From NCBI GenBank assembly GCA_034401795.1, contig CM067373.1, forward strand, positions 38,613,669 through 38,677,668: a stretch of 64,000 bases of DNA, read 5' to 3'. Under the pieces are notes generated by a model, which saw only the letters and a list, made by a program, of their open reading frames with translations, had not been told where the DNA came from and made no database searches. This document shows, one piece after another, positions 6,120 to 59,226 of this stretch (within the stretch, counting starts at the first letter, position 1; every line of letters begins with the position of its first letter). The translations under genes were made by a program, and so were the position numbers. This DNA comes from Chaetoderma sp. LZ-2023a. Taxonomy: Eukaryota; Mollusca; Caudofoveata; Chaetodermatida; Chaetodermatidae.

Positions 6120-6170
6120 ACTGCTTTGAGCACTACACCATGTTCTTCATTCAGGGAAACATTGGTAGAG
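6120..6170 (+). CDS. TADA2B: TADA2B exon 1 of window (end of SANT domain)
   Basis: Acceptor TTTTCAG ends at 6119 and donor GTAAGT starts at 6171. Two nucleotides complete an upstream codon, then CFEHYTMFFIQGNIGR, then one nucleotide of a split codon (phase 1). It corresponds to the end of the SANT domain in ADA2b. The last ~30 nt of this exon plus its donor are repeated several times in the following intron. Confidence 0.88.
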
Positions 6171-9100
6171 GTAAGTCTGAACTCAAGCATGACATTATAG
6201 TGGGGGAATGTTCTTCATTCAGAGAAACATTGGTGGAGGTACGGTTGAGCTCAAGCGTGACATTAGCGTGAGAATGTTCAGGAAACAGGTAGAGGTAAGA
6301 TTGAACTCGAGGTAGAGGTAAGATTGAACTTGAGTCTGCCTTTATTGTGAGAATGTTCTTCCTTCAAGGAAACATTGGCAGAGGTACATATAAGATTGAG
6401 CTCAAGCGTTACTTTATAGTGAGAATGTTCATCATTCAAGGAAACATTGGTAGAGGCAGGATTGAAAGCGAGCGTGACTTTATAGTGAGAATGTTTAGCA
6501 TTTATAAGTTCAACAGCATGTAGATGTCCTTATAATTACTGCCGGCAATCATCCAATGCCTCAATGGCTATAGTACTCACCTTCATACCATCGACAAGTC
6601 ACAATATATTCAGGTTTTATTGAGTTAGGGTTATCCAATCTCAATAAAGCATTCCAGATTTGTTCTATATCATCATTGCATCTAGTCTCCATCATAATGA
6701 AAATGATTCTCAAATTCTGTCCGTACTTTTACATTTACTTTGCACCAAGAATTGCAAGAATGTTCAAGTTTTTCCTTGGACATTTAATTCATGAAGGTTT
6801 TAATTGATCTCAATAAAGCTACAGATTTGTTCTATACCATCATTGCATTCAGTTTGTATCATAATTAAAATGAGTTTCTAATTTGTTCGTGTTTACATAG
6901 GACTTAATTTATTTGTGTGTGGTCCAAGAATCAGAAGTGGACGTTGAAATCATCACGACCTTTCAAGGGCTTATAACCGATTTCAACAAAATGTCAGACC
7001 CTATACAAATGCAATATAATACCATGCCATACCATACCATCATGACCATTGACCATGATGTATACAATAGCATACCGCACCATAACACGCCTTATTTCGT
7101 GTCGCCACCACATGTGTGATATGCAGAAAAATAAAATGTCGCGACATGGAACGCAGTCCATCGAGTTATTGATAAATGTAATCGTTATCCTTTTGCAAAG
7201 AACAGTCACATAGAATTATCACAGTCAGGCGAGGTTCATAATTACATTGTTTGTTATGGTATAAATTTTGCAGTGATAGAAATTGCCTTTTGGAGCCCAA
7301 GATAAAATTACCTTTGAGAATTCACGATTGTAATGATTAGCTTGATAGCTGTACCAATAATTCAATTGCTATGTTTTCAAAAATATGTCTTGTTTTTCAA
7401 ATGCATATACACTAAACAGAATTCTAGATTTCCATGACTGCTGTTGACCGCTATTAATTATTTTATTTTGTATGTTTTTTCTAGCTACATTTCCATTGGA
7501 GATTTCGACCAAAATAACTGACCACACATGTCCGATTGGAGGTGAGCTCAATTTCTGCTGGCCAACATCTGAACAGTAGCCATTTGTCCCCAAGCAGAAA
7601 ATGTATGGAGGGGGAAACCACTCATCCCAATGATTTCATGTTCTAGAATTAGTTCCAAATTTTTAGTTATTCATTTTAAATTTGACACGTTTGATCAAAA
7701 TTTTTAATACTTGACATGGTGTAATTTGTTTTTGTTTGTGTTAGTATATTTTTAAAATCTTATTTCTCTTATCAGTATTGTATAATGTGTTATTATAATT
7801 ACCAGGTCCACTATCACCCAGTCTTTCATCTCCTTTCCCACCCGTGGAGATCGCACTTCAGGAACAACGTGATCTCGGCTACATGCCACTTCGTGATGAT
7901 TTTGAATTGGTGAGTTTAGCCTGCCAGCTATAGCACTTTATTCAATAGTACATATTTGTTCATGTTATCAGATAATATTAAGTGTTGACCATTCTGCATG
8001 ATTGTTGATATACAAGGCTCCCTGAAGAGTGATGGAAATGTGTAGTAAGCATGTTAAGCTGTAGTGAAATACTAGGTCACTGATTACAGAGGCTGTGAAA
8101 CTTGTTAGGTCATTGATGAAGCACATTTATGTATGAAAGGGTGTCAAAAAGGAACTTGTTTTGATCAGTATTCTAATATTTACTAGGTCAAACATACACA
8201 GGTAAAAACGTGTTTTGACATATATTATAGAGACAAATAAGAGTATTTTATTCATTGAAGTTGGCTCTTTATACAGGTAATGTATTGTTATATAATGTTG
8301 AGTTTATAACTTCGGATGGGGTGGGGGTGGGCAGAGGGGTAGGGGGACAGCCTACTGGCTAAGGGCTCTTTAACCATATGGCTGGTGCCTAGAGACACCA
8401 AGGTGTGAAGATTATATATGCTGTGCGCTTCTTTTTTAATCTCCTGATTAGAGTTTGTTTTCACATGGGTCCCCTCTTATAACCTGGGTAATGCGGTTAG
8501 AAGCATGCTCCGTCCTAACGTTACAGTACAGATCATATATGCGTCTATATGTCGTGATTTTCCCGTAGTGACCTACTTAGACATAGCGCGTTTGGTAAAA
8601 TCTCAAGCCGCATCTTGAATTTTATCTTGACGGGTTTAAATTTTGACTTTTTGCCCTACGTGTTTGGTAGCATTTGAAAATTTTCTGATAAATTAAACGC
8701 GCCATCAATTCCAATCGCGGATCTCCAGTTCTTTCGCCGAGTCCTATGGCTAGAAGCAAACGGGTACTCGGTTCCTAGTCTAGGCAGACTGTTGTTCAGA
8801 TATCAGTACACTTTCTACGTACATGTATCTTGCGTGCTTTGCAAACTTTGAGCGATTCGTACAGCAGATTTTAACTTATTTACATCAATTTGTGGCTGGA
8901 TTTATCAGAAGATGTATTTAATTTAGTGTTTCTTCGCGATATTCGTGTAATTTCTGCATTTTTATAGTGAAAATCTCGATATATCTAATGCCGAATGGAC
9001 ACTCGTCTTGAACTGGAACACCATTCCATTCTGATGACGTCATCGCGTATATATTTGACCTAGTTATCTTTGATTGGCAGAGATATTTTTTAAAAAGCCA

Positions 9101-28934: not shown

Positions 28935-28988
<54 letters not shown>

Positions 28989-49900: not shown

Positions 49901-52900
49901 AGAGCTTTGTGTCATTCGCAAACAAATTAAGCTGTTGACTCCACAATATCTGGTATATATGACAAATAGTATAGGCCCAAGCACACTGCTCTGAGGGATT
50001 CCACTAGTAACATCTTTGCTTCCTGAGTCACTCCCATTCACCACCACCTTTTTTGTTCAACCTATCAGGAAATTTATTATCCATGTTATTAACTTCTCGG
50101 TGATACCATAGCTTTCTAATTTTCATAATAAGCGATGGTGGGGCACTGTATCAAATGCCTTCATGAGATCGATGTAAATTGTGTTGATTGAGCCACTCCT
50201 GTAGCATGGATTGTGTCATGTATATGTCTGGTTTCATATCCGATAATTAGCATGTATTGGGTCATGTATATGTCTGGTTTCATATCCGGTAATTAGCATG
50301 TATTGTGTCATGTATATGTCTGGTTTCATGTCCGTTAATTAGCGTGTATTGTGTCATGTATAAGTCTGGTTTCATGTTTAAATAACGTATTTGGTTTCAT
50401 GTTCGGTTATTAATGTTTGTATTTTCTGCTCTTCAGGGAGAAGCTGGATATCGTTATAGCACCAGAAGCAGGTAAATAAACATTAGAAAATAGGAGAATA
50501 AAACAATTTCATTCGAGTCTAAAAGTTTGTTGATATTTTAATATTTGATTCTGAATTTGGATTTTCTTCATGGTGTCTTAGAGCAATGAGGTCTATCTTC
50601 CACTCGCTTTCATATGATGACTGCTGTCTGTCTATTGTGTGAACAATATTCATGTCTAAAGCAGCAATAGCTTAAGTGTATCAGTATTGATCTTGAAATG
50701 ATTCCAAATGGAACACAAGCCTTTCTTATGCTGACTATTATTTCAATGACATCACTGTGATAATAGTCACTCACAAATGTGTAATAAATATGTATCACAA
50801 TTTCTTATTGCGAAACTGATATGAACCATAGCCCAATGAACCTTTCCAGTTTATCCATCTATCATATGACATCATAATCAACTACATGATGTCATAAACA
50901 ATTACAGCATGAATTACTCTATTTAGTCTCGTAAACGGTTAATAGTCTGACATATAGGGTTGCACGATTATTCACTTTTCCTAATCGCGATCATTTAAGA
51001 AAAATAATCGCGATCACACGATTAATCATGAACTATATTAACTACGTCAATGCTGCTTAGAGGACATTATTATGCTACTGCAGATTGTAAGATTATGGGT
51101 TAGGCACATGGGTATACATACATGGACAGAATACGCCAGTTGCTGATTGCAAACAAAGGAATGTATCAAGATTTTTCTAGACGCAAAATGGAAGGTACCG
51201 TATTTCGCGTAATTGTAGCCTATGCTCTAATAGAAGCCCACCACCTAACTTTGACATATGAGCTCCAATGATTTCTTTAGCAGTTTCAAAATGGTAAAAC
51301 TCTGTATTAGAAGCCCACCCCCTAACTCAGCAGATTGTATAGGAAAATATTTAAGAATAGCGTGTATAATAATAGCAATCATGTCACAGGGTGTGTCTAC
51401 TTCAGACCTATCTCTGCCCTGATACATTTCCGGCCCCTCTAGAAGTTAATACAGGCCTCAGATTTGTAAATCTCGATCACCTATTAGATTAATACTAATA
51501 GTAGGCCACGTATGTTCAAGATATAATAAAGTTTATTCCACACTTTTGTAGTCAAAATGCGCTTAAAACAGTCTTGGCATGATTAAATAACTTCCTTATA
51601 AATATATTTTAACGCTAACGGGAGTTTATCAAATGGGTACCCGTTACTCAGATCAGTATAATATTCAGTTCCTATCGCGCAATGATAATATATAGAAATT
51701 CTCGAGTTCCGAGTCCCCGATTCCAGAATATTTGTATCCGAGTACTCGCTCTAAAATAAACTCTTCAATTGGAGGCGAATCACGTGATTTGTATTTTTTT
51801 CGTACGCCATTTTATATCAAATTGTGGATTAATTTTGATGTAGTAAACGACCTTTATTAAAGGATACGCAATATTTTCACTTCCCCAGTGATGTTTTGAG
51901 GTATACATTAAACATAGGTGTAGGCAGTGAGAATTTTTATGGGAGAAAATGCATTGAATTTCCGTGGTATCAGTTTAGAGCTTTTTTGGGAAAACCGTTA
52001 GCGCATAGCTATTCAGAGAATGGGGAACGCGGGATAAGGGTGTGTGATTACAACAACAATGACAAATAGCGACCAAGTGAACAATCTTTATTCATCTAAA
52101 ACTAATCATGAGTCAATACAAACAAATCAGTTATTTATTTAGTTTATTTAATCATTCACACATTCGGCTGATAGCCGGATGTTTGTATCCATGATGGGTA
52201 ACGCGAGCAGAGTTTCACAAGCGTAAAGGTGTCTTGACAAAAATTTCAACATGACGATTATACGATTATTTCATTTTATAATCGTCCACGATCATTTTGT
52301 ATTATATAATCGTGATTAATCGAATAATCGAAAAATCGTGCAACCCTACTGACACATGAATTGTATGTCTTTGCTATTTAAGAAACATGCTGTTGAATAT
52401 TTTGAACCTAATTTGAACTTGGTGCTGTTGCTGCCATAGGCAATAACAGAGCCCAAACATCTTACCTATACAGTTTTCTGTGAAATGATAGTCGGTGTGT
52501 TCAGGGATTGATCGATCCCAACATGGGCAAAGTATGGGTGAAGCTTAGCTAGAGATGGGCGGGGCATGGCTAAATCTGGAATGGTCCATCTTTTCGAGCC
52601 CTTAGCGAAGCCGAGGATGGATCGACATAGCGATCCATATGTCATCCGCCACGCAGCGTGCACCAAGAATTAGCTAAATGTTAGGTTTTCAATGGACATT
52701 TATTTCACCATGGGCTTAACCGATCTCAATAAAACTTTGCAGATTTTTTCTATGCCATTATTACAGCAAGTCTGGCTGTAAATCATTTTCAAAATTGTTC
52801 CATACTTTTATGTTGTTTGGACTTTATGGCACCAAGAGTTAAAAGAATGCTACAAAAATACCCTGAAGGCAGACATGCAGCCCCCAGTCTCTAATTCTAA

Positions 52901-55900
52901 TAAAATTGGATGAAGGCTGTTGTCATTATTATCGCCTGTGCTCTTGCTATCTATCCCATACAACTGCTATCTATCCCATACAATTGCTATCTATCCCATA
53001 CAAATTTTGCCTTATGTCCCATACAATTGTTCTGTGTCCCATACAATTTATCTGTGTCCCATGCTGATGCTATGTGTCCCATGCTGATGCTATTTGTATG
53101 CAGTTGCTATTTGTCCCATCTCTTGCTATTTGTCTCATACTGTTGCTATGTGTCCCATATGTTTGCTATTTGTCCTATGCTATTGCTATCTGTCCCATAC
53201 GGTTTCTGTCTGTCCTATGCTGGTGTTATCTGTCCTATGTTGCTACTATCTGTCTCACTTTCGATCTAACCTATACTGTTTCTATCCGTTCCATGCGCTT
53301 GCTATTTGTCGCTGCTATTGCTATCTGTCCCATATCGTTGCTGTCTGTCCTATGCTGTTGCTATCTGTCCTATGCATTTGCTATTTGTCCCATTCTTTTG
53401 CTATTTGTCCCATACTGTTGGTATCTGTCCCATTCTGTTGGTGTCTGTCCTATGCTGTTATCTATCCTATGATGTTGCTATTTCTTCCATGCTGTTGCTA
53501 AGTGTCCTATGTTGTTACTATCTGTCTCACTCTTGCTATTTGTCCTATTCTGTTGCTGATATTGTGTTTCTGTAGCCGATGTCAAAGATGACATAGTGGA
53601 TATGGAGGAGGCTCGGGAACTGTCTGCGATGCCAGGATACCAGATGTTGTCTGATAGGGAGAGAAAGGTAGGCAATTCACCTTTTCAGACTATCCATCTA
53701 TCATCTGACGTCATATTAATGTCATAATCAGCTAAGTGGCGTGTAGGATGACGGCATAATCATTACTTCATAAATGATTCTATTTGGCCCGTCTTTAACT
53801 CTTAATTGTCTAACACGTCGTACGAATTGTATGTCTCTACTATTTAATAAAAATACTGTTGAATATTTGTAAACAAAATTGACTGGATGCTGTTGCTGCC
53901 TGTATAGTGTTCTGGAAATTAATATTAAGGGAGTTCACAGATCGATCGATCCCAACACGAGCAAGGTGTGGGTGGAGCTTAGCTACAGATGGGTGGGGCA
54001 TAGCTAAAAATGGAAAGGTTTAATAACTCCTCCACAATGACTATTTGTACCCCATCTGGTCCTGGGTATGACGATAAATTGCAAGCGGCAAAAGAGGCTT
54101 AGGCTAGGTGGGTGAATGTGGTTACCCGGGATCCCTGTTAGCACCGGGTGGGCAGAACTCGCTACTTTTACTCAAGCATGTGTATGAAGGGATCTGGGCT
54201 GACACTCGAGTATCTGACGTCATAGTCAAATGTGTCACTTGTTAGTTCACTTCACAATCCAATGACGTAGTTATAATAAGGAAAATTAGTTTTCTCTGGG
54301 ATGTAATATTTGTTTGAGTGTAGCTTTCATGACAAACTCGGTCAGTTATTCAGCATGTGATGGAATTGATTGGTAGACCACTGGTTCACTTAGCCCTCAT
54401 CTCATTTAATGAGTGATTCGTGTTTGTAAAGGTCATTGACCTCCTTGACCTTGTTTTTAAACAAATTAGTCTCGATATTAATTACAGAAGTCTTGTTTTG
54501 TGTGTGCTCTGCCACAGCCAAGTTGGAACCACCTGCTCAAACTCAAAGCCTGGAAAACATGAACATCATCGATCAAATGCTATATTTAAAATTTTGCCCA
54601 GGAACTGCCATTGTCCCATGATTCTATAGGCTTAAAAAAATTCATAAGACCAACATTTCTCTTAGACCTATCATTTCCAGCCTTGTATGCATCACCAATC
54701 AAGCCTCGAAATCTCGCACAGATCCTAAAATTACTAGATGGCCAGTTACATGACTTAGAACACCACATTGAGAACAAGAAAGACTTCGCTAGCAAAATCC
54801 TATCGCAGGAAGTACCACCCACTTACAAAGTAGTATCATTTGACATGTCTTTACTCTTCACCCGCATCCCAGTGGACAAGGCCATACCAGTCATCCAGAG
54901 AATTCTTAACCAATAGGTACACCACTCTAAAAGACTAAACCAGCCTCAGCCCTAACCAGATTATCAACCTCCTGAAGATAGTTCTAGACATCACATACTT
55001 TGTCCAACTTCTATCATCAAATTCGTGGAGTAAGTATGGGATCATCAGTGTCACCAGTGACCAGCTAACCTCTACATGGAATCCTTTGAGCAACAAGGAC
55101 GCATCATATCTACTAACCCACCATACTTCTGTACCATTATGTTGAGGACACTGTTAAAACATCAAACTTTTCGCCAACCACCTCAACAGTATTGACCAAT
55201 TGCATCCAATCCGCCAGTGAGATTGAAGAAGACGACCAGATTGCTTTCCTCGATGTCTCATTTCATTTCCTATCAGCCGTAGTTTAGCAAAATCAAAACC
55301 TATAGTTTAGCAAAATCAAAACCTACCAGCTGTAGTTTAGCAAAATTTAAACCTGCCAGCTGTAGTTCAACAACATCAAAATCTACCAGCCATAGTTGGA
55401 CAGCATCAAAACCTACCAGCCGTAGTTCAACCGCATCAAAATCTATCGGGCATAGTTCAACAACATCAAAATCCACCAGCCGTAGTTGAACAGCATCAAA
55501 ACCTACCAGCCGTAGTTCAACATAGCTTCAAATCCTATCAGCCGCAGTTCAACAATGTCAAAGCTTAGCAGCTGTAAACGCTACCAACCATAGTTCAACT
55601 CCATCAAAACCTGCCAGCCGTAGTTCAACAACATCAAAACTTACCAGCCATGTTCAACAAAATCAATGCCTACCAACCATAGTTCAACACCATTAAAACC
55701 TACCAACCATAGTTCAACAGCGACAAAACCTGTCAACCATAGTTCAACATCAAAACCTACAAGCCATAGTTCAACAACATCAAACCCTACAATCCATCCT
55801 TCAACAAAATAAAACCTACCAGCCGTCGTTCAACAACATCAAAACCTGCACGCCATAGTTCAACAACATAAATCTTACCAGCTGTCGTTCAACAACATCA

Positions 55901-58900
55901 AACCTACCAGCCATAGGTCAACAACATCAAAACTTACCACCTGTAGTTCAACAACATCAAAACTTACCACCTGTAGTTCAATAACATCAAAACATACCAG
56001 CCATAGTTTAACATAACTTCAAATCCTACCAGCCCCTTAACACCTTGAGATCACAACTTGTTAGAGCTAAAGACGAGCTCACAACAGATAAATGCTCTGG
56101 AGTCATCTATGAGATCAAGTGATGACCAAGAATGCTTTTTGATAATGGCTGCCATGATTGGAGGATTATACCTGTATTTTAATTATAATCTAGTTTCTTT
56201 GTGTTCTAGCACTTTGCTTTTTGATTGTCCTATTTCAGCTGTGCAGTTCTATAGGCATGACTCCTGCGAATTACATCACAATTAAGACATGTATTATCAA
56301 GGTAAGTCTACATCACAATGGACCTTTCCAGTTTTAGTTATACCCCGCCAATCTCTAGTTAAGCTCCACCCACGCTTTGCCCGTGTTGGCATTGATCTCC
56401 GAATGTCCCGACTCAATTTTCAGAAAACTACAGCTAAGCTGTTGAATATTTTGAAAATAACCTGACTAGGTGCTGTTGCTGCCAGCAACAGCGCCCAGTC
56501 AAATTAGTTTCAAAATATTCAACAGAATGTTTATTAAATGTTAACGACATACAATTCGTGCAACAACACTTAGCCCGTCTTCAATTATGCGTTCGTGATG
56601 TACTTAAATAAGTCATTCATGACGTCATTGATTATGACATCATCCTACACGTCATGTAGTTGAATGTGATGTCATATCATGGATGGATAAACTGGAAAGG
56701 TCCATTAAGACATGTATTATGTGAGTCTAGATCACAATTAAGAAATTTATTATTAAGGTGAGTCTCTTTTGCTGCTTACATCACACTTAAGACCCATATT
56801 ATCAAGTCTTATCTGCTCACTTCATCACAATTAAAACACGTATTATCAAGCTGAGTCTTACATGCTTATTTTAATTAAGACATGTGTTATCAAGCTGTGT
56901 CTTACATGCTTATTACACTTAATACCTGTATTATCAAGCTGAGTTACATGCTTATTACTTTTAAGACCTATGATATCAAGCTGAGTTTTACATGCTTATT
57001 ACAATTAAGACCTAATATCAAGCTGAGTCTTACATGCTTATTGCAATTAAGACCTGTATTATCAAGCTAAGTCTTACATGCTTATTACATTTAAGACCTG
57101 TAATATTAAGCTGAGTCTTACATGCTTATTACAATTAAGACCTGTAATGTCAAGCAGAGTCTTACATGCTTATTACATTTAAGACCTGTGATATGAAGCT
57201 GAGTCTTACATGCTTATGAACTCACCTGGCCGGAATGGCCAAGTGAGCTTATGCCATGGCGACTGTCTGTCCGTCGTCCGTCCGGCAACTTTTTTCTTTA
57301 AACAACTTCTCAGGAACCGCTAGGCCTATTTCAATCATATTTGGTAGGAAGCATCCTTCGGGCATACAGATCTCAGTTTGTTCAAAGGAAGTCAATGGCC
57401 AGTGGCCATCTTGGGTTTTGGCCGATTTTTTGAAACCTCTAAAAATCTTCTCCGAAACCACTTAGTGGATCAATTCAAAACTCACGAAATATCATATAGG
57501 GCAAGAGCTGGACCAACTTTGTTCAAAGGAACTTCATTGGCCAAATGGTTTGGCAGCCATCTTGGATGACCTAGTTTTCATGAAAACGACTTCTGCAGAG
57601 CCGCTTGAACAGATCAAGCCAAAATTTGGGGGAATATGATTATGGACTAAGGGTCATTAAAGTTTGTTCATGGGAAGTTGATAGGTAAAAAAATATGGCC
57701 ACCGTAGACCAATCCAATTTTAGTGTGTTTAACTGTTATATTCAATTTTTTGATTTGATGGATTTTGAAGCCGAAATTGGTGTTCTTAACTGTTGTATAG
57801 CAATGATCCCGTCCGTCTTCTGTATGTCCGTCCGTCCATCCATCTGTCCGTCACCATCAATGGTGGCTCGTTTTGTTATTTCTTGATGGATTGACACCAA
57901 GCTTGGTCACAATGTTAATGTTGGCATCTAATATCTGTGTTGTGAAAATGAAGCTGATAGAACGTCAAATGCCAGAGTTATCACCCATTAAATATTTGCA
58001 GTCTGACTTTCATAGGGGAAAAATAGGTTTGTTCCCACTGTCCACTGATTTATCACCATGTCAGATTTTTGTAGATAACTCCAATTAACAGATTATCTTT
58101 TCCCTCACTGCCTAAATATTTAAGATATGTATTATGTGCTCTGACATCTATTCTCTTAAATATATTTTGAAATGTATTTGATTGAAAGACTCAGTCAAAT
58201 TGTTTTCTAAATAAACTCCGGCTCACCTTACCCCTGCTGCTAACTTGGCTATTCAACCAAATGCGCATGTGTTAAATGGGTTGTGTGGTGGTTGGGGAAT
58301 AACCTGCTATAAAGACCACCTGTATTAAGAGACCACCTGTATTTAGAGACCATTTTCTTCAATTGTATTTAAACCTCAATTAACCGTTTGACTGCTGAGT
58401 TTTTGCAGACGACATTCCAAAGGTTATATCTCTGAACCTGATAAATATTTTGAAAAGAATTTAACTGAAAGTTGTTGGTGGCTAAGCCGTCAACAACTTT
58501 CAGTCGAATTGGTTTCAAAATATTCAACAAGTCAAGAGCCTTTGAAAATTGAAATTATTGCCTGAACTGGCTTGCAGCAGCGAGACAGTTAAGAAACCAG
58601 CTGTTGTTATTAGTGCTGATCTATTTTCACTTAAACAGTGTCCAAAATTACTATTGCAAAAAACAGTCCAGAGATTGGTGTCAATATCTCAAAAACTGAA
58701 ACCATTTGACTGAAAGTCATTGGAAGTGGCACCGATGAATGTAAAACTTAAAGTAAGATTAGTTGAAATGCCAATGTTCCAGGTGAGCGATACAGGCCCA
58801 TTGGGCCTCTTGTTACAATTAAGACCTGTATTATCAAGCTGAATTTTACATGCTTAGTACATTTAAGACCTGTAATATCAAGGTGAGACGTAGCTGATAA

Positions 58901-59226
58901 TAACATCACAATTAAAACCCATATTATTACGGCGAGTCTTAGCTGTGAATCACATCACAATTAAGACATGTATGGACAGCTTCCATGCTTAGCGGATGAA
59001 GCATGTATGTGTGAATAGTAGTATTGCAGGATGCTATTAGTATTGGAGGATGAACACGGATATCCTAAATCTTAAATACATATGTTGTCTGCTTACTTTT
59101 CAGGATTATCTTCAGAGACGACAAGGGTATCCAGTGAAAATACGCTATCCCAGTGGTCTAGATAAAACACATCGCCGAAAAATAATGAGCTTCCTTACCG
59201 ATAATGGCTGGATTGGTGTAACGTAA
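6120..59226 (+). CDS. TADA2B: Transcriptional adaptor 2B (ADA2b), 13 exons, 5' incomplete
   Basis: ADA2b is known to bridge GCN5/PCAF to ADA3 and SGF29 in the SAGA histone acetyltransferase module in the nucleus. Spliced CDS: join(6120-6170, 7485-7541, 7806-7909, 27874-27946, 29184-29355, 34456-34535, 37017-37088, 44151-44218, 47401-47450, 50437-50471, 53576-53667, 56239-56301, 59104-59226). Every junction is GT-AG, phases match throughout, and there is no internal stop; 1040 nt gives about 345 residues. Recognisable ADA2b landmarks in order are the end of SANT (FFIQGNIGR), DHTCP followed by GGPLSPSL, LGYMPLRDDFEL, RERE..RIARDY, RFFENLQ, RIKELLRFRKNGLTKLE, and a C-terminal SWIRM-like domain from MPGYQMLSDRE to NGWIGVT and the stop. 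The human protein is about 420 aa, so the missing part is the ZZ finger and most of SANT, upstream of the window. Odd points: a ten-alanine run in exon 5, splice-site-associated minisatellites, and introns full of transposons. Recognition comes from remembered family features, not a search. Confidence 0.93.
6171..6500 (+). repeat. Minisatellite derived from the end of exon 1 and its splice donor
   Basis: Irregular 56-75-bp units repeat the exon 1 tail (AATGTTCTTCATTCAGGGAA, then ACATTGGTAGAG) together with the donor. Copies of the exon/donor boundary fall at 6171 (real, GTAAGT), 6239 (GTACGG), 6295 (GTAAGA), 6318 (GTAAGA), 6384 (GTACAT) and 6456 (GCAGGA, donor lost). Confidence 0.8.
6620..6950. 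repeat. Two tandem units of an interspersed repeat
   Basis: ATCTCAATAAAGC..., TTGTTCTATA..., CATCATTGCAT and TTTGCACCAAGAAT blocks occur twice here and once more at about 52690-52850. Unclassified. Confidence 0.5.
7485..7541 (+). CDS. TADA2B: TADA2B exon 2
   Basis: The acceptor is a T-rich tract ending CTAG at 7484; donor GTGAGC starts at 7542. With the split codon from exon 1 it reads ATFPLEISTKITDHTCPIG plus one nucleotide. DHTCP followed by GGPLSPSL across the next junction is a clear ADA2b signature. 57 nt, phase 1 in and phase 1 out. Confidence 0.92.
7806..7909 (+). CDS. TADA2B: TADA2B exon 3
   Basis: Acceptor TTACCAG ends at 7805 and donor GTGAGT starts at 7910. The exon completes a Gly codon and then encodes 34 residues that include PLSPSLSSPFPPVE and end LGYMPLRDDFEL, the linker after SANT in ADA2b. 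It ends in phase 0. The following intron is about 20 kb and carries the DIRS and P elements. Confidence 0.95.
7910..9300. other. 5' part of intron 3, no gene
   Basis: The only landmark is a G-rich stretch at about 8316-8346. No coding potential seen. Confidence 0.5.
9310..9810 (-). repeat. AGCTCACC-family repeat fragment, inverted
   Basis: The reverse complement matches the internal blocks of 1-1655: TTTTATGAAG..., AATTGTCAAAACGCTACTCA, CCGCTTGACAGATTGCAACC, TTGGCTGGA. Confidence 0.7.
10256..10445. repeat. TTAA hairpin MITE (family B), partial
   Basis: Starts CCTTTAATGGTCATGG. Carries the palindrome TACCAGTAGAATGACTGGCT / AGCCAGTCATTCCAGTGGTA and the CTTGGTCTGCAAA block. Confidence 0.7.
10933..11243 (+). 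repeat. MITE family A, right end lost
   Basis: GGATCCACTTTTAGCTATGC start, hairpin core and TAAATAGTAAAGACATACAA block. It breaks off at TGACATCATATAC exactly where a TTAACCCTTTAA family B end begins. Confidence 0.7.
11244..11700. repeat. TTAA hairpin MITE (family B) material
   Basis: The left end is TTAACCCTTTAACACTCATG. The palindrome at about 11525-11660 pairs CACTAGAATGATTGTCTCGA with CGAGCCGGTCATTCCAGTCG. The right end is unclear. Confidence 0.6.
11963..12000. repeat. Short perfect-type hairpin
   Basis: GAATAAACCAGCATGATTAT faces ATCGTGCTGGTTTATTC with almost no loop. Confidence 0.65.
12105..12315. repeat. Palindromic MITE (~210 bp)
   Basis: Left arm GAGACTGAGTGCTGGTAGTA...AAAATAGCATTCTATC...TGTGTTGGTAC pairs with right arm GTACCAACACA...GATAGAATGCTATTTTAT...TACCACCGCTCAGTCT. 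Confidence 0.7.
12501..13835. mobile_element. TTAA-flanked family B element carrying a further insert
   Basis: It lies between TTAA (12497-12500) and TTAA (13836-13839). Ends are ACCCTTTATGGTTATGCC and TTTACCATTAAAGGG. The left half of the family B hairpin is at about 12502-12650 and the right half at about 13755-13835. In between sits another block bounded by TACGCCCGC (12671) and GCGGGCGTA (13742). TTAA plus CCCTTT ends resemble piggyBac-type elements; no transposase is present. Confidence 0.7.
12735..13690. repeat. ~155-bp tandem repeat, about 5-6 units
   Basis: Units contain GGGAGATAACTC, GCGAATATG, GAGGATTTTGCCGAAA, AAATCATGACACTTCG, GTGTAGGTTCAAAACTCTTC and GAGATCTGGCCCGGACAAG. They lie inside the innermost nested insert. 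Confidence 0.75.
14152..14381. repeat. Long palindrome (~230 bp)
   Basis: Arms pair CATCAACACGGACAGTAGC, CACCACTGATCACCAGCATG, AGCAATATTATATAGGACCA with their complements on the right side. The loop region around 14255-14290 is itself inverted (GACTTGTATTGTT/AACAATACAAGTC). Confidence 0.8.
14544..14736 (+). repeat. DIRS left inverted terminal repeat
   Basis: The reverse complement matches 21348-21535. It includes GGTGCCCCTACTGGGCAGGG and GCGCATGCGCAGACTAGCAC. The outermost ~160 bp look almost identical between the two sides. Confidence 0.9.
15562..17691 (+). CDS. DIRS ORF1, GAG-like protein
   Basis: A 709-codon ORF. Near the N-terminus is a Cys/His-rich block, CASCGRFMHVKFWPHLCYRC followed by a C..C pair, resembling the zinc-knuckle-like region I associate with ORF1 of animal DIRS elements. 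Next comes a lysine-rich stretch (EEEKKKKRKRE) and a long Ser/Pro/Gly-rich middle. The tail is rich in Arg, Gly and Pro (RGARGAGRVARGSGRGYRS) and likely binds nucleic acid. It stops at TGA 17689-17691. ORF2 overlaps its end. Candidate splice acceptors inside (near 15629 and 15780) leave the true N-terminus open. Assignment as GAG is by position and composition. Confidence 0.75.
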   Translation: MSWIEFLSLTSCSYSLSFALFQGPGCASCGRFMHVKFWPHLCYRCSPCGPLINCDICKHWGGELMSEFLCCLQATDKVVEEEKKKKRKREVVSRKGKGKVSSAVDMETFRTEMLGEMKRTIKDLVPGLLRGMLPGPDPLLSSSSASEQVIPASGSIFLSPLPLSDDSEVAPLEGAFHGPGSRLIAAPIGDRGRLSLEPAGCLSVQGYPHAAVASTSYGTVPGQPGLALFADPGSNLSDQGDEDYLLGSPSDDVDMDEDVCAPLAGNTGAFFHGITHPGVRSAVQVVAQGAADGQRYRIPRLAESVAGAGRARGRAIYTPRSTAVPAPGQTSDILMPVLSGPHVFPGLPGVSAYPPSSSTACAQEEDEGPRLVERSQFATEEDWYDACQWLVSVRPDLPVEQSASHRVHTPWLAGKPTANAMPSLPLAEHVVDMFKAAEASINTSGRLAKAPREVARRCRIVPLDYQRYGVVPKPSVDDRAALGEDTRPGSRSDAGVLCANALRSANTALRDAEESGRASIAALSHVSQLLQGVVTASASRQPGPLAVQRTIQDGINLALDCMTRAVTRSVRARRTFALDNLCPSQDLYNRLLRTPMTGPGLFGGEGCRHLQETVTLVNNQRALREQFEVLRRANVRAAAPAYRPLQARGGAGQVRGQPPSQRRPRPRAIRPAVRGAQAPQPPSARQPPVHRGARGAGRVARGSGRGYRS
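17636..19822 (+). CDS. DIRS ORF2, reverse transcriptase/RNase H polyprotein
   Basis: 728 codons, overlapping ORF1 by 56 nt in a different frame. RT spans about residues 135-300: LVTKRTGGWRPILNLKPLN, DLKDAYFHIPIH, LPFGISTAPRVFT, and the catalytic box YIDDW at about 252-256. RNase H spans about 413-532: TVYTDAS (D419), LLELRA (E451), IRSDNS (D476), LLADSLSRR (D527). The C-terminal part (PNIDLFATKKN, ...QVLLIAPDWPSRSWY) is the domain that follows RNase H in DIRS elements, sometimes described as methyltransferase-related; I see no diagnostic methylase motif. The real start could be one of several later ATGs (for example 17730). It copies the element RNA into DNA. Confidence 0.93.
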   Translation: MHAGRGGSREDLGVVIVPDRALTAVRTTPVCMATETVPLLHALCPPRSLGGPVGGRLADHMQEWERLTQDRLVLRWLSVGYHPEWMTGPLSRLSLVPVWTPVPRDPDQRLCIEEEINSLIQKGAIQPAQRCPGFYSTLFLVTKRTGGWRPILNLKPLNKFIETPSFKMETVRSVLAGLERGMWTASIDLKDAYFHIPIHRSFCRFLRFAFQGRQWEFRVLPFGISTAPRVFTHVVLAITAYLRRRSIAVHTYIDDWLLKAHTRESLSANLEIVLKILTDLGWMINFPKSELTPSQKFVYLGMFFDLETGYVYPTQERVQILISLIQSVCDSRHVLARVYLRMLGLMVSLEPVIPQAALRRRPIQLFLMTQWTQSTGSLDSNVSVLAPLIHHLQWWLNTENLLPGVLLTPPHPQVTVYTDASMEGWGACLEESTISGLWDLEQSQEHINLLELRAVVLGLEHFLQKVQGKIVLIRSDNSTVVTYINRQGGTKSPSLCMMTWKLLCWCLDHQITLKAVHIPGRLNLLADSLSRRMSVLPTEWQLNQCVADRLFDHWGKPNIDLFATKKNAKMTTYVSPIPDPSAFATDALAISWGRMYAYAFPPAILIPKILQKIRQEECQVLLIAPDWPSRSWYTDLLDLLVCNPVPLPLMDDIIFQGKALHNNPSMFRLTAWMLSRNLELRRAFLSKQPCLWPKPGGGQPPEHIIIKSTDLQNGAQKDVLIQWIHLFK
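19621..20661 (+). CDS. DIRS ORF3, tyrosine recombinase
   Basis: Its frame is -1 to ORF2 and overlaps the ORF2 end. It inserts the circular DNA copy by site-specific strand exchange. Visible parts: an N-terminal SAM-like domain (EGFSEQAAMFMAKARRGST...NRFAEWCSKR...SIAGYKSAL), then the catalytic residues R in AASARRRGEIHALS, H-x-x-R in HSVRG, and the Tyr in SSFTDHYLRD near the end. The frame is stop-free upstream all the way to 17692, so the start is uncertain; homology begins near 19650. AATAAA overlaps the stop codon (20657-20662). Translation may use -1 frameshifting or an internal start. Confidence 0.92.
   Translation, partial: QSVNVQIDCVDVVKESRIKEGFSEQAAMFMAKARRGSTSRAYNYKINRFAEWCSKRCIDPMDSSIQVVADFLCHLYDAYSLKPNSIAGYKSALMSVIPCLAKRGSDEVNTLNVLIKGMGNLRPRNPPVIPSWSLSLVLQVLGDKPFEPLSSISMKLLTLKTVFLIAAASARRRGEIHALSAEDDRFVVSGEGLKLLPRINFLAKNQSLKYPGQPIILPALTRYDPNSKAWCPVRALRRYKQRTAAWRTDQSALWLSYIEPHGRASKDTISRWIVECIQFCHESATGKQVDVAKAHSVRGVVTSTALFNGVPVDDIMSVAQWHCESSFTDHYLRDTSNPLALSVLKK
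20662..21191 (+). other. DIRS 3' non-coding region
   Basis: Non-coding, with a G-rich run near 20998-21011. It lies between ORF3 and the internal complementary region. Confidence 0.6.
21192..21289 (+). repeat. DIRS internal complementary region (ICR)
   Basis: The first half (GTAAGTATACTCTTGAAGTG) is complementary to the extreme left end at 14529-14570. The second half (AAACGAAATCTAGGATTTCT through GAGTTGATACTT) is complementary to the extreme right end at 21520-21579. The two halves meet at the shared TTTCA. In DIRS elements this region templates joining of the ends into a circle. Confidence 0.92.
21348..21535 (+). repeat. DIRS right inverted terminal repeat
   Basis: Complement of 14544-14736. 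The unique outer right tail continues to 21579. Confidence 0.9.
21680..21871. repeat. TTAA hairpin MITE (family B)
   Basis: CCCTTTACTGTCC left end, AGCCAGTCATTCCAGTGATA arm, and right end CCATTAAAGGGTTAA. A second half-copy follows to about 21995. Confidence 0.7.
22043..22267. repeat. TTAA hairpin MITE (family B), degenerate
   Basis: CCTTTAATCCTAAAATTGG start, AAAATGTCCGTTTGCAG block, and right end GTGTTAAAGGGTCAA. Confidence 0.65.
22850..22985. repeat. Family B MITE fragment inside the P element
   Basis: GAATGTCCGTTTGTAGGCCA faces CAGCTTACAAATGGACATTC across about 120 bp. Confidence 0.6.
23634..23790. repeat. CA-rich simple repeat
   Basis: Mixed CA/CATG/CACG repeats. They break no host exon and keep a frame open by chance. 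Confidence 0.7.
23977..24560. repeat. Two to three family B MITE copies in tandem within the P-element intron
   Basis: Left end near TTAACCATTTAATGGTTAAG. Palindromes at 24070-24140 and 24190-24250. Right ends AAGGGGTTAATGG at about 24317 and a further copy to about 24550. Confidence 0.7.
25056..27873. other. 3' part of intron 3
   Basis: Mostly unassigned. It holds a family A hairpin core at 25607-25690 (AACTAATTTGACTGAAAG / CAGTCAAATTGCTTTC), an ATATAT run at 25907, and a poly-G tract (listed separately). No gene seen. Confidence 0.55.
27537..27570 (+). repeat. Poly-G tract (22 consecutive G) with G-rich tail
   Basis: Twenty-two Gs at 27537-27558 followed by TGGTGGGGGGTG, about 300 bp before exon 4. 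It could form G-quadruplex DNA or RNA. The exact length may be a sequencing or assembly estimate. Confidence 0.85.
27874..27946 (+). CDS. TADA2B: TADA2B exon 4
   Basis: Acceptor ATTTTCAG ends at 27873 and donor GTAATA starts at 27947. It encodes ECENEVEALISSLSSDD followed by NDAELDI and one nucleotide, matching the acidic 'DAE.LIS.LS' stretch that follows RDDFE/Y in ADA2b. A minisatellite starts about 38 bp into the next intron. Confidence 0.92.
27985..28310. repeat. Minisatellite of mixed ~24-28-bp units near the exon 4 donor
   Basis: Units such as AATGTTGCAAACACTC and CTTCATACCAACGTTACAAA. A block of about 110 bp is repeated almost exactly (around 28048-28156 and 28163-28270). It starts about 38 bp after the donor. 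Confidence 0.8.
28352..28786 (+). repeat. MITE family A copy
   Basis: Starts AATGGACATTTCTTGTTTTA and ends AAACTGGAAAGGTCCA, with the hairpin half-core and TGACATCATTGATTATGATG at the right. A short stretch of the neighbouring minisatellite lies inside it (about 28465-28550). Confidence 0.75.
28936..28985. repeat. (TA)n microsatellite
   Basis: About 25 TA units in intron 4. Confidence 0.95.
29015..29095. repeat. Half of a family B MITE
   Basis: CTTGGCCTGTAAATGGACAT and AAGGCTGGTTTGAGCC blocks. Only one arm is present. Confidence 0.55.
29184..29355 (+). CDS. TADA2B: TADA2B exon 5, with a 10-Ala tract
   Basis: Acceptor TTTGCAG ends at 29183 and donor GTAAGA starts at 29356. The exon encodes AVKLSQVDNYRMKLRERE then KRKRIARDYGLI, matching the basic helix 'LRERQRRK.IARDY' of ADA2b. 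It continues with ten consecutive alanines from mixed GCN codons (29273-29302) and a lysine-rich stretch GNKLKPPQPKRKFAKDEK. The vertebrate protein has no comparable alanine run here as far as I recall. It ends in phase 2. Confidence 0.95.
29390..31470. repeat. ~52-bp minisatellite, about 2.1 kb, with an exact 240-bp higher-order duplication
   Basis: Unit: GGGAATAACAGTAGACATCC, CTGGGTAGGTGGGGACTAGA, CCTTCCACATCA. It starts about 40 bp after the exon 5 donor. The 240 bp at 30841-31080 and 31081-31320 are identical base for base. Each unit carries GGGTAGGT, a donor-like string. Confidence 0.95.
31480..34280. other. Middle of intron 5, nothing recognised
   Basis: No ORF or TIR pair that I can support. 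A G-rich patch lies at 32708-32770. Confidence 0.5.
34295..34400. repeat. Inverted repeat hairpin
   Basis: AAGACCAACTTTATTATTTT and CGCATCTTCATCA face TGATGAAGCGTGTGTC and AAAAAAAGTTAGTCTT. Confidence 0.6.
34456..34535 (+). CDS. TADA2B: TADA2B exon 6
   Basis: The pyrimidine-rich acceptor TTTTTCCAG ends at 34455; donor GTATGT starts at 34536. It reads EFQEKMRTFTQFQSS then AEHDRFFENLQ, matching the 'LY.F.S..EFD.FFENMHKE' helix of ADA2 proteins. Phase 2 in, phase 1 out. Confidence 0.94.
34632..34857. repeat. TTAA hairpin MITE (family B)
   Basis: Left TTAACTCTTTAACCATTAAA, palindrome CACTGTAATGAGTGATTC / GAGCCAGTCATTGCAGTC, right end GAGTGTTAAAGGATTAAG. It lies about 95 bp after the exon 6 donor. 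Confidence 0.75.
35322..35665 (+). repeat. MITE family A copy
   Basis: GGAATCCAGTTTTAGCTATG start and GAAACTGGATTCC end, so the TIR variant differs from the GGTCC-type copies. GATTATGATGTC blocks at right. Confidence 0.75.
35670..37016. other. 3' half of intron 6
   Basis: No gene recognised. A tight hairpin lies at 36885-36911 (GCGATGGCTTCG / CGAAGCCATCGC). The ORFs around 36150-36860 show no family features. Confidence 0.5.
37017..37088 (+). CDS. TADA2B: TADA2B exon 7
   Basis: Acceptor TTTGCAG ends at 37016 and donor GTAAGC starts at 37089. It encodes KEKDVKSRIKELLRFRK then NGLTKLE, the conserved 'RI.ELQ.YR.NGIT..EE' helix. A tandem duplication places a second donor (GTAAAC) at 37131. Using it would extend the exon by 42 nt, in frame and stop-free, adding 14 residues. 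Confidence 0.94.
37056..37147 (+). repeat. Tandem duplication of the exon 7 end and donor
   Basis: GAAAAATGGCCTGACTAAAC followed by TTGAAG|GTAAGC is repeated as GAAAAAATGGCTGTGCCAAAC then TTGAAG|GTAAAC, about 42 bp apart. Confidence 0.85.
37957..38830 (+). repeat. AGCTCACC-family repeat, 5' end present
   Basis: Starts TTAGCTCACCGGGCCAAGTG, then AGCTTATGCCATAGAGGC. Internal blocks match 1-1655. It is cut off where the decayed DIRS copy begins. Confidence 0.75.
38845..41663 (+). pseudogene. Decayed, 5'-truncated DIRS retrotransposon
   Basis: Homologous to the intact DIRS from mid-RT onward. It begins at the segment equivalent to about 18315 and has internal deletions equivalent to about 18385-18640 and 19050-19320. 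RNase H and recombinase remnants (39000-40770) contain many stops and a ~150-bp insertion at about 39850-40010. AATAAA after the recombinase end is kept. The right ITR (about 41480-41635) and ICR remain; the left ITR and GAG are missing. It belongs to a diverged relative, not a recent duplicate. Confidence 0.88.
41302..41403 (+). repeat. ICR of the decayed DIRS copy
   Basis: 58 consecutive bases (41327-41384) are identical to 21214-21271 of the intact element, while the flanking bases differ. Confidence 0.9.
41715..41999 (-). repeat. MITE family A copy, inverted
   Basis: Starts AATTCACCTTTCCAG, ends GGCTAAAAATGGAAAGGTCC, with GGTGTGGGTGGAGCTTAGCT inside. The hairpin core is shortened. Confidence 0.75.
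42326..43501 (+). repeat. AGCTCACC-family repeat, both ends
   Basis: From TTAGCTCACCATAGCGACCG (with GTCCGTCCGTCCGTC following) to CAGGTGAGCGATACAGGCCC then GGGCCTCTTGTTA. Internally GGCCATCTTGGAT and TTGGCAGGAAGCATCC recur, so it is made of about two related halves. The 5' and 3' ends share GGTGAGC in inverted orientation. Confidence 0.8.
44151..44218 (+). CDS. TADA2B: TADA2B exon 8
   Basis: Acceptor TTTTCCCCAG ends at 44150 and donor GTGAGT starts at 44219. It reads EIEEFEDDKYCRERKRG then AIKKKT, equivalent to the 'AEYE..RHKREKRK' basic segment of ADA2b. It ends in phase 0. A 47-bp minisatellite begins within about 20 bp of the donor. Confidence 0.9.
44226..45508. repeat. 47-bp minisatellite next to the exon 8 donor
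   Basis: Unit: GAGCGGTCAGTTCTATGTCC, CTCTAAATAGAGGATGGTGT, GTAATAA; about 26 units. Each unit has the perfect small palindrome CCTCTAAATAGAGG. The first unit begins within about 20 bp of the donor at 44219. Confidence 0.92.
45510..46910. other. Middle of intron 8, nothing firm
   Basis: 46190-46450 has a GTCTCTGTCTATGTATCTCT stretch and a short ORF with no family signature. Left unassigned. Confidence 0.45.
46915..47125. repeat. TTAA-type hairpin MITE (family B)
   Basis: Arms GTCCATTTGTAGGCCAAGAG...CACTGGAGTGACTGGCTCGA pair with CGAGCCAGACATTCCAGTGG...GGCTTACAAATGGACATTA. Confidence 0.75.
47401..47450 (+). CDS. TADA2B: TADA2B exon 9 (small, variable linker)
   Basis: Acceptor TTTATCTAG ends at 47400 and donor GTAAGT starts at 47451. 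The 50-nt exon encodes GSVLLAKRTSMVSKKA plus two nucleotides. It lies in the variable linker between the basic helix and SWIRM, so it is supported mainly by splice signals and phase: phase 0 in, phase 2 out, fitting both neighbours. Confidence 0.75.
47611..48740 (+). repeat. AGCTCACC-family repeat, 3' end decayed
   Basis: Starts TTTAGCTCACCTGGCCTGAA and CCAAGTGGGCTTATGCCGTG. TATTTGGCAGGAAG and GCCATCTTGGAT blocks match 42326-43501. Confidence 0.75.
48900..50432. repeat. ~50-bp minisatellite in front of exon 10, split by a retrotransposon fragment
   Basis: Units GTGTATTGTGTCATGTATAT, GTCTGGTTTCATGTCCGGTA, ATTAGC at 48950-49030 and 50200-50410. The last partial unit runs into the exon 10 acceptor. 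The first copy (48905-48945) resembles the exon 10 acceptor and start. Confidence 0.8.
49080..50190 (-). pseudogene. Non-LTR retrotransposon reverse transcriptase fragment (CR1/jockey-like)
   Basis: Read on the - strand: IYIDLMKAFDTVPHHRLL, TSGIPQSSVLGPILFVIY, then FANDTKLYR in place of FADD, then LQRWIDTWLLRFHQNKCK, then MDLIRRSFTYL and LFKVLVRPHIE, and near the end LWNGLPTALINVKT. It is the second half of an RT with stops, frameshifts and a D-to-N change in the catalytic box. It interrupts the minisatellite. Confidence 0.85.
50437..50471 (+). CDS. TADA2B: TADA2B exon 10 (micro-exon in linker)
   Basis: Acceptor CTCTTCAG ends at 50436 and donor GTAAAT starts at 50472. The 35-nt exon completes a Glu codon, then EKLDIVIAPEA and one nucleotide. 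It is supported by phase continuity (2 in, 1 out) rather than conserved sequence. The acceptor sits at the end of a minisatellite, and a decayed copy of this exon start is seen at about 48905-48945. Confidence 0.75.
50838..52590 (-). repeat. MITE family A copy, inverted, split by a hAT element
   Basis: The left part ends ...GGTTAATAGTCTGACATA. The right part resumes CTGACACATGAATTGTATGT, then the hairpin core and GGGCGGGGCATGGCTAAATC, ending GGAATGGTCCAT. Confidence 0.8.
50955..52348. mobile_element. Non-autonomous hAT-like transposon
   Basis: TIRs TAGGGTTGCACGATTATTC and the complement of ATCGTGCAACCCTA. Flanked by CTGACATA (50947-50954) and CTGACACA (52349-52356), an 8-bp duplication with one difference. 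Subterminal ATCGCGATCA and ATAATCG repeats occur. No transposase ORF. 1.39 kb. Confidence 0.82.
52690..52850. repeat. Copy of the repeat at 6620-6950
   Basis: CCGATCTCAATAAAACTTTG, TTTTTCTATGCCATTATT and GGCACCAAGAGTTAA blocks. Confidence 0.5.
52930..53560. repeat. ~21-bp pyrimidine-rich minisatellite ending at the exon 11 acceptor
   Basis: Unit TTGCTATCTGTCCCATACTG with variants, about 29 units. Period 21 keeps all three forward frames open (ORFs of 119-135 codons), which are artefacts. Confidence 0.92.
53576..53667 (+). CDS. TADA2B: TADA2B exon 11 (start of SWIRM-like domain)
   Basis: Acceptor TTTCTGTAG ends at 53575 and donor GTAGGC starts at 53668. It encodes ADVKDDIVDMEEARELSA then MPGYQMLSDRERK, matching 'LPGFELLSDREK' at the start of the ADA2b SWIRM-like domain. 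The intron in front is a ~21-bp minisatellite that runs almost to the acceptor. A MITE starts about 10 bp after the donor. Confidence 0.95.
53677..54021 (-). repeat. MITE family A copy, inverted
   Basis: Starts AATTCACCTTTTCAG only ten bases after the exon 11 donor. Contains TGACGTCATATTAATGTC and the hairpin half-core. Ends GCTAAAAATGGAAAGG. Confidence 0.78.
54290..55262 (+). pseudogene. Penelope-like element reverse transcriptase fragment
   Basis: In shifting frames: FYRLKKIHKTNISLRPIISS, then HHIENKKDFASKI, VVSFDMSLLFTRIPVDKAI, then QIRGVSMGSSVSPVTS and EIEEDDQIAFLDV. These match the order of Penelope-like RT motifs (LPKIHK..RPIVSS, VSFDV.SLFT.IP, G..MGSP.SP, PFLD). Several frameshifts and stops. 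The upstream GTTTGAGTGTAGCTTTCATG is shared with the inverted repeat at 63263-63606. Confidence 0.8.
55265..56035. repeat. ~30-bp minisatellite
   Basis: Unit AACATCAAAACCTACCAGCC plus ATAGTTCAAC, about 25 units. It begins right after the Penelope-like fragment. Confidence 0.9.
56239..56301 (+). CDS. TADA2B: TADA2B exon 12 (SWIRM-like)
   Basis: Acceptor TATTTCAG ends at 56238 and donor GTAAGT starts at 56302. It encodes LCSSIGMTPANYITIKTCIIK, matching 'LCSSL.LSPARYVTVKTIIIK' of ADA2b. Phase 0 on both sides, 63 nt. The 3' end of the exon is the source of a minisatellite in the next intron. Confidence 0.95.
56319..56704 (+). repeat. MITE family A, best-preserved copy
   Basis: TIRs TGGACCTTTCCAGTTT and AAACTGGAAAGGTCCA. 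The central hairpin pairs AATATTTTGAAAATAACCTG and GGTGCTGTTGCTG with CAGCAACAGCGCC and CAGTCAAATTAGTTTCAAAA. The right part carries TGACGTCATTGATTATGACA and TGATGTCAT. It has inserted into the exon 12-derived array: CACAAT before and ATTAAG after suggest an AT target duplication. Confidence 0.85.
56705..57218 (+). repeat. 44-bp minisatellite derived from the end of exon 12 and its donor
   Basis: Unit ACAATTAAGACCTGTATTAT, CAAG, CTGAGTCTTACATGCTTATT. The first part copies the exon 12 tail (ACAATTAAGACATGTATTAT, then CAAG) and the rest copies the start of the intron. In most units the donor GT has become CT. Units near 56721 and 56758 still have GTGAGT. The array resumes at 58816. Confidence 0.85.
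57219..58815 (+). repeat. AGCTCACC-family repeat, both ends, inserted into the minisatellite
   Basis: Starts GAACTCACCTGGCCGGAATG, CCAAGTGAGCTTATGCCATG. Ends CCAGGTGAGCGATACAGGCC, then GGGCCTCTTGTT. Minisatellite units flank it on both sides, so the boundaries are good to a few bases. A family A-type hairpin lies inside at about 58430-58530. Confidence 0.82.
58816..58960 (+). repeat. Remainder of the exon 12-derived minisatellite
   Basis: ACAATTAAGACCTGTATTAT, CAAG units continue after the inserted repeat. Confidence 0.8.
59104..59226 (+). CDS. TADA2B: TADA2B terminal coding exon
   Basis: The acceptor CTTTTCAG ends at 59103. It encodes 40 residues, starting DYLQRRQGYPVKIRY and ending SFLTDNGWIGVT, then TAA at 59224-59226. 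Compare 'DHLQKRQGIPSKSR...ILNFLTESGWI' in ADA2b. This is the natural C-terminus. I did not find a convincing nearby poly(A) signal, so the 3'UTR end is unknown. Confidence 0.95.
   Translation, partial: DYLQRRQGYPVKIRYPSGLDKTHRRKIMSFLTDNGWIGVT

Follow-up and report, generated by a model that had tools for sequence, protein, structure and literature searches.

How did tandem arrays come to lie beside so many splice junctions of a single gene, and does anything about a splice site itself promote duplication? These questions are raised by TADA2B of the caudofoveate mollusc Chaetoderma sp. LZ-2023a, which lies in a 64-kb window, i.e., the whole stretch of DNA that was analyzed. We argue that its arrays are probably minisatellites of the type known in amphioxus as mirages, which straddle a junction or occupy the strip beside an exon where other repeats are scarce, and which arose by ordinary local duplication.

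Anatomy of the TADA2B arrays

Exons were called within the window with a human TADA2B probe in tblastn, combined with checks of AG/GT borders and of phase. Twelve were resolved between 6120 and 59226, all on the + strand, providing 11 donors and 12 acceptors (23 splice sites), and all of the called borders were AG and GT. Exon 1, the first in the window (6120..6170), matched human TADA2B residues 105-122 by tblastn, had AG/GT borders and joined exon 2 in phase 1. Exons 2 (7485..7541), 3 (7806..7909), 7 (37017..37088), 10 (53576..53667), 11 (56239..56301) and 12 (59104..59226, with the end of the SWIRM domain and the stop codon) were also placed by tblastn and phase; exons 4 (27874..27946), 5 (29184..29355, with an alanine run), 6 (34456..34535) and 8 (44151..44218) were placed by homology and phase, and the small exon 9 (50437..50471) from its sequence and phases. 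The reading frame was unbroken across exons 1 to 8 and across exons 10 to 12, and exon 9 is in frame with exon 10 only via one more small exon between exons 8 and 9. The 12 introns (13 exons) counted in the initial annotation are therefore plausible, although no candidate for the extra exon emerged when the stretch between exons 8 and 9 was strictly searched. A probe for the 5′ part of TADA2B (ZZ and SANT) detected no exons. When 6090-7500 and 56230-59220 were searched against the genome, no second copy of the gene appeared among the matches listed.

The segment at 39230-39420 was rejected as a TADA2B exon because it resembles the RNaseH stretch of an element in intron 3; it is a fragment of an element of that type, with a 22-bp duplication. 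Three long overlapping open reading frames of 709, 728 and 978 aa lie in intron 3 at 15562-20661, and we take them to be those of a DIRS-type retroelement (reverse transcriptase/RNaseH and tyrosine recombinase). Upstream of the TADA2B exons, at 2236-3193, are two overlapping open reading frames that presumably represent a broken transposase of the Tc1/mariner type.

The donors of introns 1, 7 and 11 are crossed by tandem copies that include 25-31 bp of the exon end, as revealed by local alignment of each junction to its intron and, for intron 7, also by Tandem Repeats Finder (TRF); within TADA2B, donors alone are spanned by arrays. The array in intron 1 (6140..6500, + strand, defined by local alignment, with TRF detecting 6287-6334 only) contains about five copies, some of them shortened, of a unit of ~70 bp, i.e., the last ~30 bp of exon 1 together with the first ~40 bp of the intron. 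At the exon 7 donor, TRF, sequence and donor score identified two copies of a 42-bp unit (37064..37147, + strand) made up of 25 bp of exon and 17 bp of intron, the second of which retains a donor-like GTAAAC. The unit in intron 11, of 36-44 bp, consists of the exon 11 tail (30 bp) followed by GTAAGTC. Its main array occupies 56272..57217 (+ strand; local alignment, and TRF after removal of an insertion) and a distal remainder 58816..58973 (+ strand; local alignment), so that the exon tail and splice-site letters recur through the intron at about 56704-57217 and about 58816-58973. The initial annotation had described four cases in which the unit includes exon-edge sequence, and three were found here; the repeated local duplication that it proposed is upheld, and in these three introns it runs across the junction.

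Other arrays lie near splice sites without crossing them (all on the + strand). One in intron 4, with units of 31 bp and 111 bp (27991..28292, TRF), starts 44 bp inside the intron from the donor. That in intron 5, with a 52-bp unit (29383..31407, TRF plus a weak first unit), starts 66 bp from the donor by TRF, or 27 bp if the weakly matching first unit is counted. There are two in intron 8: 27 copies of a 47-bp unit (44245..45504, TRF) start 26 bp past the donor, and an array of a 46-bp unit (48947..50423, local alignment plus TRF) approaches the exon 9 acceptor to 61 bp by TRF, or to ~13 bp counting a degenerate last unit. The array in intron 9, with a 20-bp pyrimidine-rich unit (52939..53572, TRF), ends 18 bp from the exon 10 acceptor at a TRF score of ≥50 and 4 bp from it at ≥40. 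Local alignment detected no exon copies in the arrays at the donors of introns 4, 5 and 8 or at the acceptors of exons 9 and 10.

Eight introns had been said to carry an array within about 40 bp of a splice site. There was an array at all eight, but TRF alone confirmed that distance for three (the donors of introns 7 and 8 and the exon 10 acceptor, with the intron 4 donor at 44 bp), and at the remaining sites so short a distance is reached only if degenerate units are counted, local alignment is used or an insertion is removed. The units, of about 70, 31/111, 52, 42, 47, 46, 20 and 44 bp, had also been called unrelated in length and sequence; they look so when the TRF consensuses are compared by eye, rather than by alignment of unit to unit.

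A search for dispersed elements in introns 1, 5, 8 and 11 revealed several insertions. The second unit of the intron 11 array is split by a 390-bp element (56317-56706) that is bounded by 15-bp terminal inverted repeats and parts of which match other places in the genome; once this element was removed, the array detected by TRF spanned the exon 11 donor and included 30 bp of exon. The same array contains a 1.6-kb dispersed element (about 57218..58815, + strand), with TTA on each side, which the genome search found in at least 39 other places with 83-88% identity. The 46-bp array of intron 8 is split by an element at about 49037-50201, present in 7 other places among the matches listed (79-82% identity). 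Dispersed elements entered two arrays later than the arrays were formed. A further dispersed element, in intron 5 (31890..34168, + strand, genome search), occurs in at least 39 other places with 85-92% identity.

Once the identified elements were excluded, arrays delimited by hand accounted for 82% of the sequence in intron 11, 72% in intron 5, 39% in intron 8 and 36% in intron 1. Without its two elements, intron 11 is 816 bp long and consists largely of degenerate copies of its own donor junction, with TRF arrays making up 539 bp (66%). These proportions would fit the creation, or extensive rebuilding, of intron 11 from copies of its donor junction, a route envisaged by the Rogers and mirage models, and the amphioxus globin paper proposes intron building by junction duplication (PMC3087553). 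As in the tandem duplication described as a case of intron gain in a report on potato RdRp (PMC4974935), the duplicated segment here runs across an intron-exon boundary and its additional copy turns into intron; unlike that case, there is no evidence here for a new intron position. Moreover, the distal remainder of the array stops 130 bp short of the acceptor, and local alignment found no copy of the unit in those last 130 bp, so that the acceptor was not visibly made by duplication of the donor junction. The derivation of both new splice sites from the duplicated segment, which characterizes intron gain by tandem duplication, was thus not found for intron 11, and we regard this origin of the intron as unlikely.

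Tandem repeats at other splice sites of the genome

Another explanation would make exon-intron junctions hot spots, with breaks or R-loops linked to transcription or splicing duplicating these borders preferentially. Clustering within the window favors it. TRF detected 21 merged arrays of period ≥7 in the window, and 13 TRF arrays lay wholly in introns. In chance tests that used several cut-offs, chosen after the distances were known, 5 of these 13 had an edge no more than 70 bp from a splice site (0.44 expected, P = 1e-4) and 2 were within 40 bp (0.25 expected, P = 0.025) when arrays were confined to introns; with each array kept in its own intron, the P values for 70 bp and 40 bp were 2e-4 and 0.055. 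When arrays were placed anywhere, including exons, there was no excess at 60 bp (5 of the 23 sites vs 3.28, P = 0.25) and a weak excess at 100 bp (P = 0.027). The hot spot explanation also gains from copies of the exon-edge 40-mer, found at 3 of the 11 TADA2B donors and at none of the 12 acceptors, but the three donor-side and two acceptor-side arrays with no detected exon copy count against it.

We extended the comparison to 114 exons with 225 splice sites, sampled from CCT, myosin and SNF2 genes of the 2.44-Gb assembly. Among the solved structures listed, the muscle-type myosin of this genome came closest to 3i5f and to the 1dfk/1b7t/2ec6 group, i.e., squid and scallop myosins, as would be expected of a mollusc. 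Set 1 comprised 24 CCT and 30 myosin exons with borders called by hand (52 donors and 53 acceptors, of which one donor and two acceptors were positioned by score). Set 2 comprised 40 SNF2 and 20 myosin exons with borders called automatically, by a caller that agreed with the hand calls of set 1 in 51/53 and 51/52 cases; the question put to set 2, but not the exact far bins, was set before its sequence was viewed. The CCT search listed 56 matches, of which 30 were taken as loci, and 24 of the 34 SWIRM and CCT loci were used. Those left out were L001-L004 (SWIRM exons) and L012, whose borders were not called; L005 and L006, which are bacterial; L007 and L011, which consist of long open frames; and L009, which is the same exon as L010 and contains N. 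Second exons present in some CCT loci were excluded from the counts. For myosin there were 30 loci plus 20 more fetched out of 65 matches, and for SNF2 40 of 63 matches were taken from the top of the table, minus bacterial contigs and a few others. One locus (L036) provided a donor only, and two last exons (L030 and L032) an acceptor only.

The two bacterial loci are full-length, uninterrupted GroEL genes on contigs C18 (4.76 Mb, L006) and C19 (0.54 Mb, L005), which for this reason look bacterial (symbiont or cobiont). Of the best 80 relatives of the C18 GroEL, most belong to gammaproteobacteria and none exceeds 77% identity.

Minisatellite edges lying 0-70 bp from a splice site, compared with 140-500 bp, numbered 4 vs 10 in set 1 (P = 0.18) and 7 vs 25 in set 2 (P = 0.26). 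The corresponding figures were 6 vs 4 (P = 0.002) and 3 vs 4 (P = 0.09) for microsatellites (period 1-6), and 10 vs 13 (P = 0.002) and 10 vs 28 (P = 0.08) for all tandem repeats. At a TRF score of 30, the P values for sets 1 and 2 were 0.09 and 0.17 for minisatellites, 0.002 and 0.16 for microsatellites, and 0.012 and 0.12 for all repeats. With the sets pooled at a score of 50, P was 0.12 for minisatellites, 6e-4 for microsatellites (9 vs 8 edges) and 0.001 for all repeats. Repeat cover, defined as matches on another chromosome within the sample, was 18% within the first 70 bp of the intron and 38-50% farther in. In repeat-free sequence at the 225 sites, the near/far ratio for minisatellites was 1.36 (P = 0.26), i.e., no significant excess, as compared with 3.8 for microsatellites (P = 0.0065) and 2.1 for all tandem repeats (P = 0.011), although the masking drew on only a few hundred kb of sample and is incomplete because of this small size, making the argument from dilution approximate.

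The idea that splice sites are general hot spots for minisatellites is therefore not supported, and the initial annotation's proposal that duplication is tied to splicing signals finds no support in the minisatellite ratio. The check that it had suggested, a comparison of TRF arrays with splice-site distance, was run on the sample and came out negative for minisatellites and positive for microsatellites and for all repeats pooled. Some proximity effect does exist, but it is borne by another class of repeat, the microsatellites, and this excess lies outside what tolerance of mirage-type duplications accounts for. The microsatellites that lay no farther than 70 bp from a splice site were those at L033, L035, L046, L047, L050, L064, L087, L099 and L102; seven of the nine have a period of 3 and two a period of 4, and they are several-fold denser than in the deeper intron.

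Exon edges were themselves seldom copied. A copy of the exon-edge 40-mer within 480 bp was found at 2 of the 225 sampled sites, compared with 11.3% of 3831 intronic controls (11-15% of intronic 40-mers had such a near copy at a score ≥26). This is a difference of about ten-fold (Fisher P = 3e-9, which is overstated because the control windows overlap); since the control is any 40-mer inside an array, the test bears on exposure to arrays and not on how often single duplications occur. In an early copy test of 46 CCT splice sites there were no exon-edge copies, and with a 36-point cut an intron-edge copy was seen at 2 of 22 donors and 0 of 24 acceptors. The pooled microsatellite excess and the 2.1-fold ratio for all tandem repeats after masking speak for a junction hot spot, but the unraised density of minisatellites and the rarity of exon-edge copies speak against it, and we consider a hot spot distinctly improbable as the source of the TADA2B arrays.

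Compared with the sample, TADA2B is an outlier, having exon-edge copies at 3 of 23 sites vs 2 of 225 (Fisher P = 0.006, a value that ignores the choice of window) and arrays that span the site or have an edge at most 70 bp away at 6 of 23 sites vs 13 of 225 (P = 0.004). This outlier status counts against the reading that we favor, i.e., tolerated mirage-type duplication, as do the excesses of microsatellites and of all tandem repeats that persist after masking.

Junction arrays were also present in other genes. As a first estimate for this genome, an array straddles the junction, or starts exactly at it, at 4 of the 225 sampled splice sites, and exon edges are otherwise rarely copied. At the donor of a CCT1 exon (L016, position 1689), 17 copies of a 28-bp unit (97% matches) start exactly at the GT, so that the units repeat the donor letters GTGAGG. 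Arrays of 41 bp at the L074 donor and 26 bp at the acceptor of a myosin exon (L100) straddle the junction with few exon bases, and a 49-bp array straddles the L124 acceptor with 4 exon bases by TRF. Upstream of the L100 acceptor, at 610, nine units in 300 bp repeat the acceptor and first exon letters, with TTTCAG in eight and TTTCGG in one. In a fifth case, the L070 acceptor, a short 14-bp array ends 1 bp away.

Probable tolerance of duplications, and the amphioxus mirages

The cause of the arrays, and their splicing, we infer as follows. Slippage, unequal exchange or break repair would produce duplications anywhere in an intron. Where one end of the duplicated segment lay in the exon and the other in the intron, the outer exon would stay intact, and such a junction-straddling duplication may be tolerated because the exon-proximal copy keeps working and the rest is removed as intron. 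Mobile elements would then lengthen the intron away from the exon, so that old arrays would tend to survive near its edges. Proximity to splice sites may also reflect survival, because other repeats occupy the intron least in the strip next to the exon; the gradient of repeat cover and the insertions inside arrays both point in this direction. The junction arrays can be explained without any special link to splicing, and for minisatellites no significant link emerged from the sample. The series of arrays in TADA2B could be the tail of an ordinary process, noticed because it is striking.

It might be supposed instead that the arrays were selected because they aid splicing, perhaps as sources of pyrimidine tracts or of additional donors. 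In intron 9, the 20-bp array does merge into the polypyrimidine tract of the exon 10 acceptor, and the intron 1 array has kept three donor-like GT sites, at +68, +124 and +147, with two donor-like copies scoring 6.1 against 7.7 for the real donor. However, the extended exon 1 frame encounters a stop before the copies at +124 and +147, the donor GT has been replaced by CT in 7 of 8 aligned copies of intron 11 (56823-57211) and by CA in the other, and the units look unrelated among introns, all of which makes a selected function very unlikely. An artefact of assembly or misplacement of exons, which the one small exon lacking from the frame might suggest, is scarcely credible, given that the exon ends at the donors of introns 1, 7 and 11 fit TADA2B homology and phase on both sides, that the units differ from one another and that the pattern recurs in unrelated genes.

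The original paper on the Adh mirage is reportedly that of Canestro, in 2002. According to later reports, mirages in amphioxus are minisatellite-like tandem duplications of exon-intron boundaries, found in the genes for Adh3, the globins BflGb6 and BflGb9, troponin C and PGBD5; both types of boundary are affected, repeat number varies between haplotypes, and RT-PCR suggested regular splicing (PMC3087553, PMC3902484). The arrays described here are alike in unit size (tens of bp or more), in unit content (an exon edge, a splice signal and an intron edge), in occurring on both donor and acceptor sides, in keeping AG or GT in some copies, and in a unit length that varies by gene. Units span the exon-intron boundary at the donors of TADA2B introns 1, 7 and 11 and, with few exon bases, at L074, L100 and L124; both ends of introns are affected, i.e., acceptors at L100 and L124 and donors at L074 and in TADA2B; and splice signals persist in many, though not all, copies, as donor-like scores at the three TADA2B donors indicate. 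They differ in their host, a mollusc, and in being interrupted by inserted elements. Ordinary intronic minisatellites and microsatellites share with them local, unrelated units and arrays throughout introns, whereas three of the TADA2B arrays contain exon sequence.

A broader claim would be that junction copies build most repeat-free intron sequence, with mobile elements inserting later, and that this occurs genome-wide in molluscs, genes such as TADA2B being the extreme; we view this as possible but rather doubtful. If it were true, some introns would be made largely of their own splice junction, and mirages would be no oddity of cephalochordates. Should mirages exist in both molluscs and amphioxus, junction duplication would be a wider source of intron sequence, of decoy splice sites and of allelic length variation than has been reported. 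The open-licence literature searched yielded junction-spanning minisatellites in amphioxus only, together with single intron-gain duplications such as that in potato, which does not prove that no other case has been published. For comparison of alleles within this genome, the CCT4 region could be used: parts of it lie on chromosome C15 (at 132.7 Mb) and on the unplaced contigs C1286 and C1564, and the pieces on the two contigs are probably retained haplotypes.
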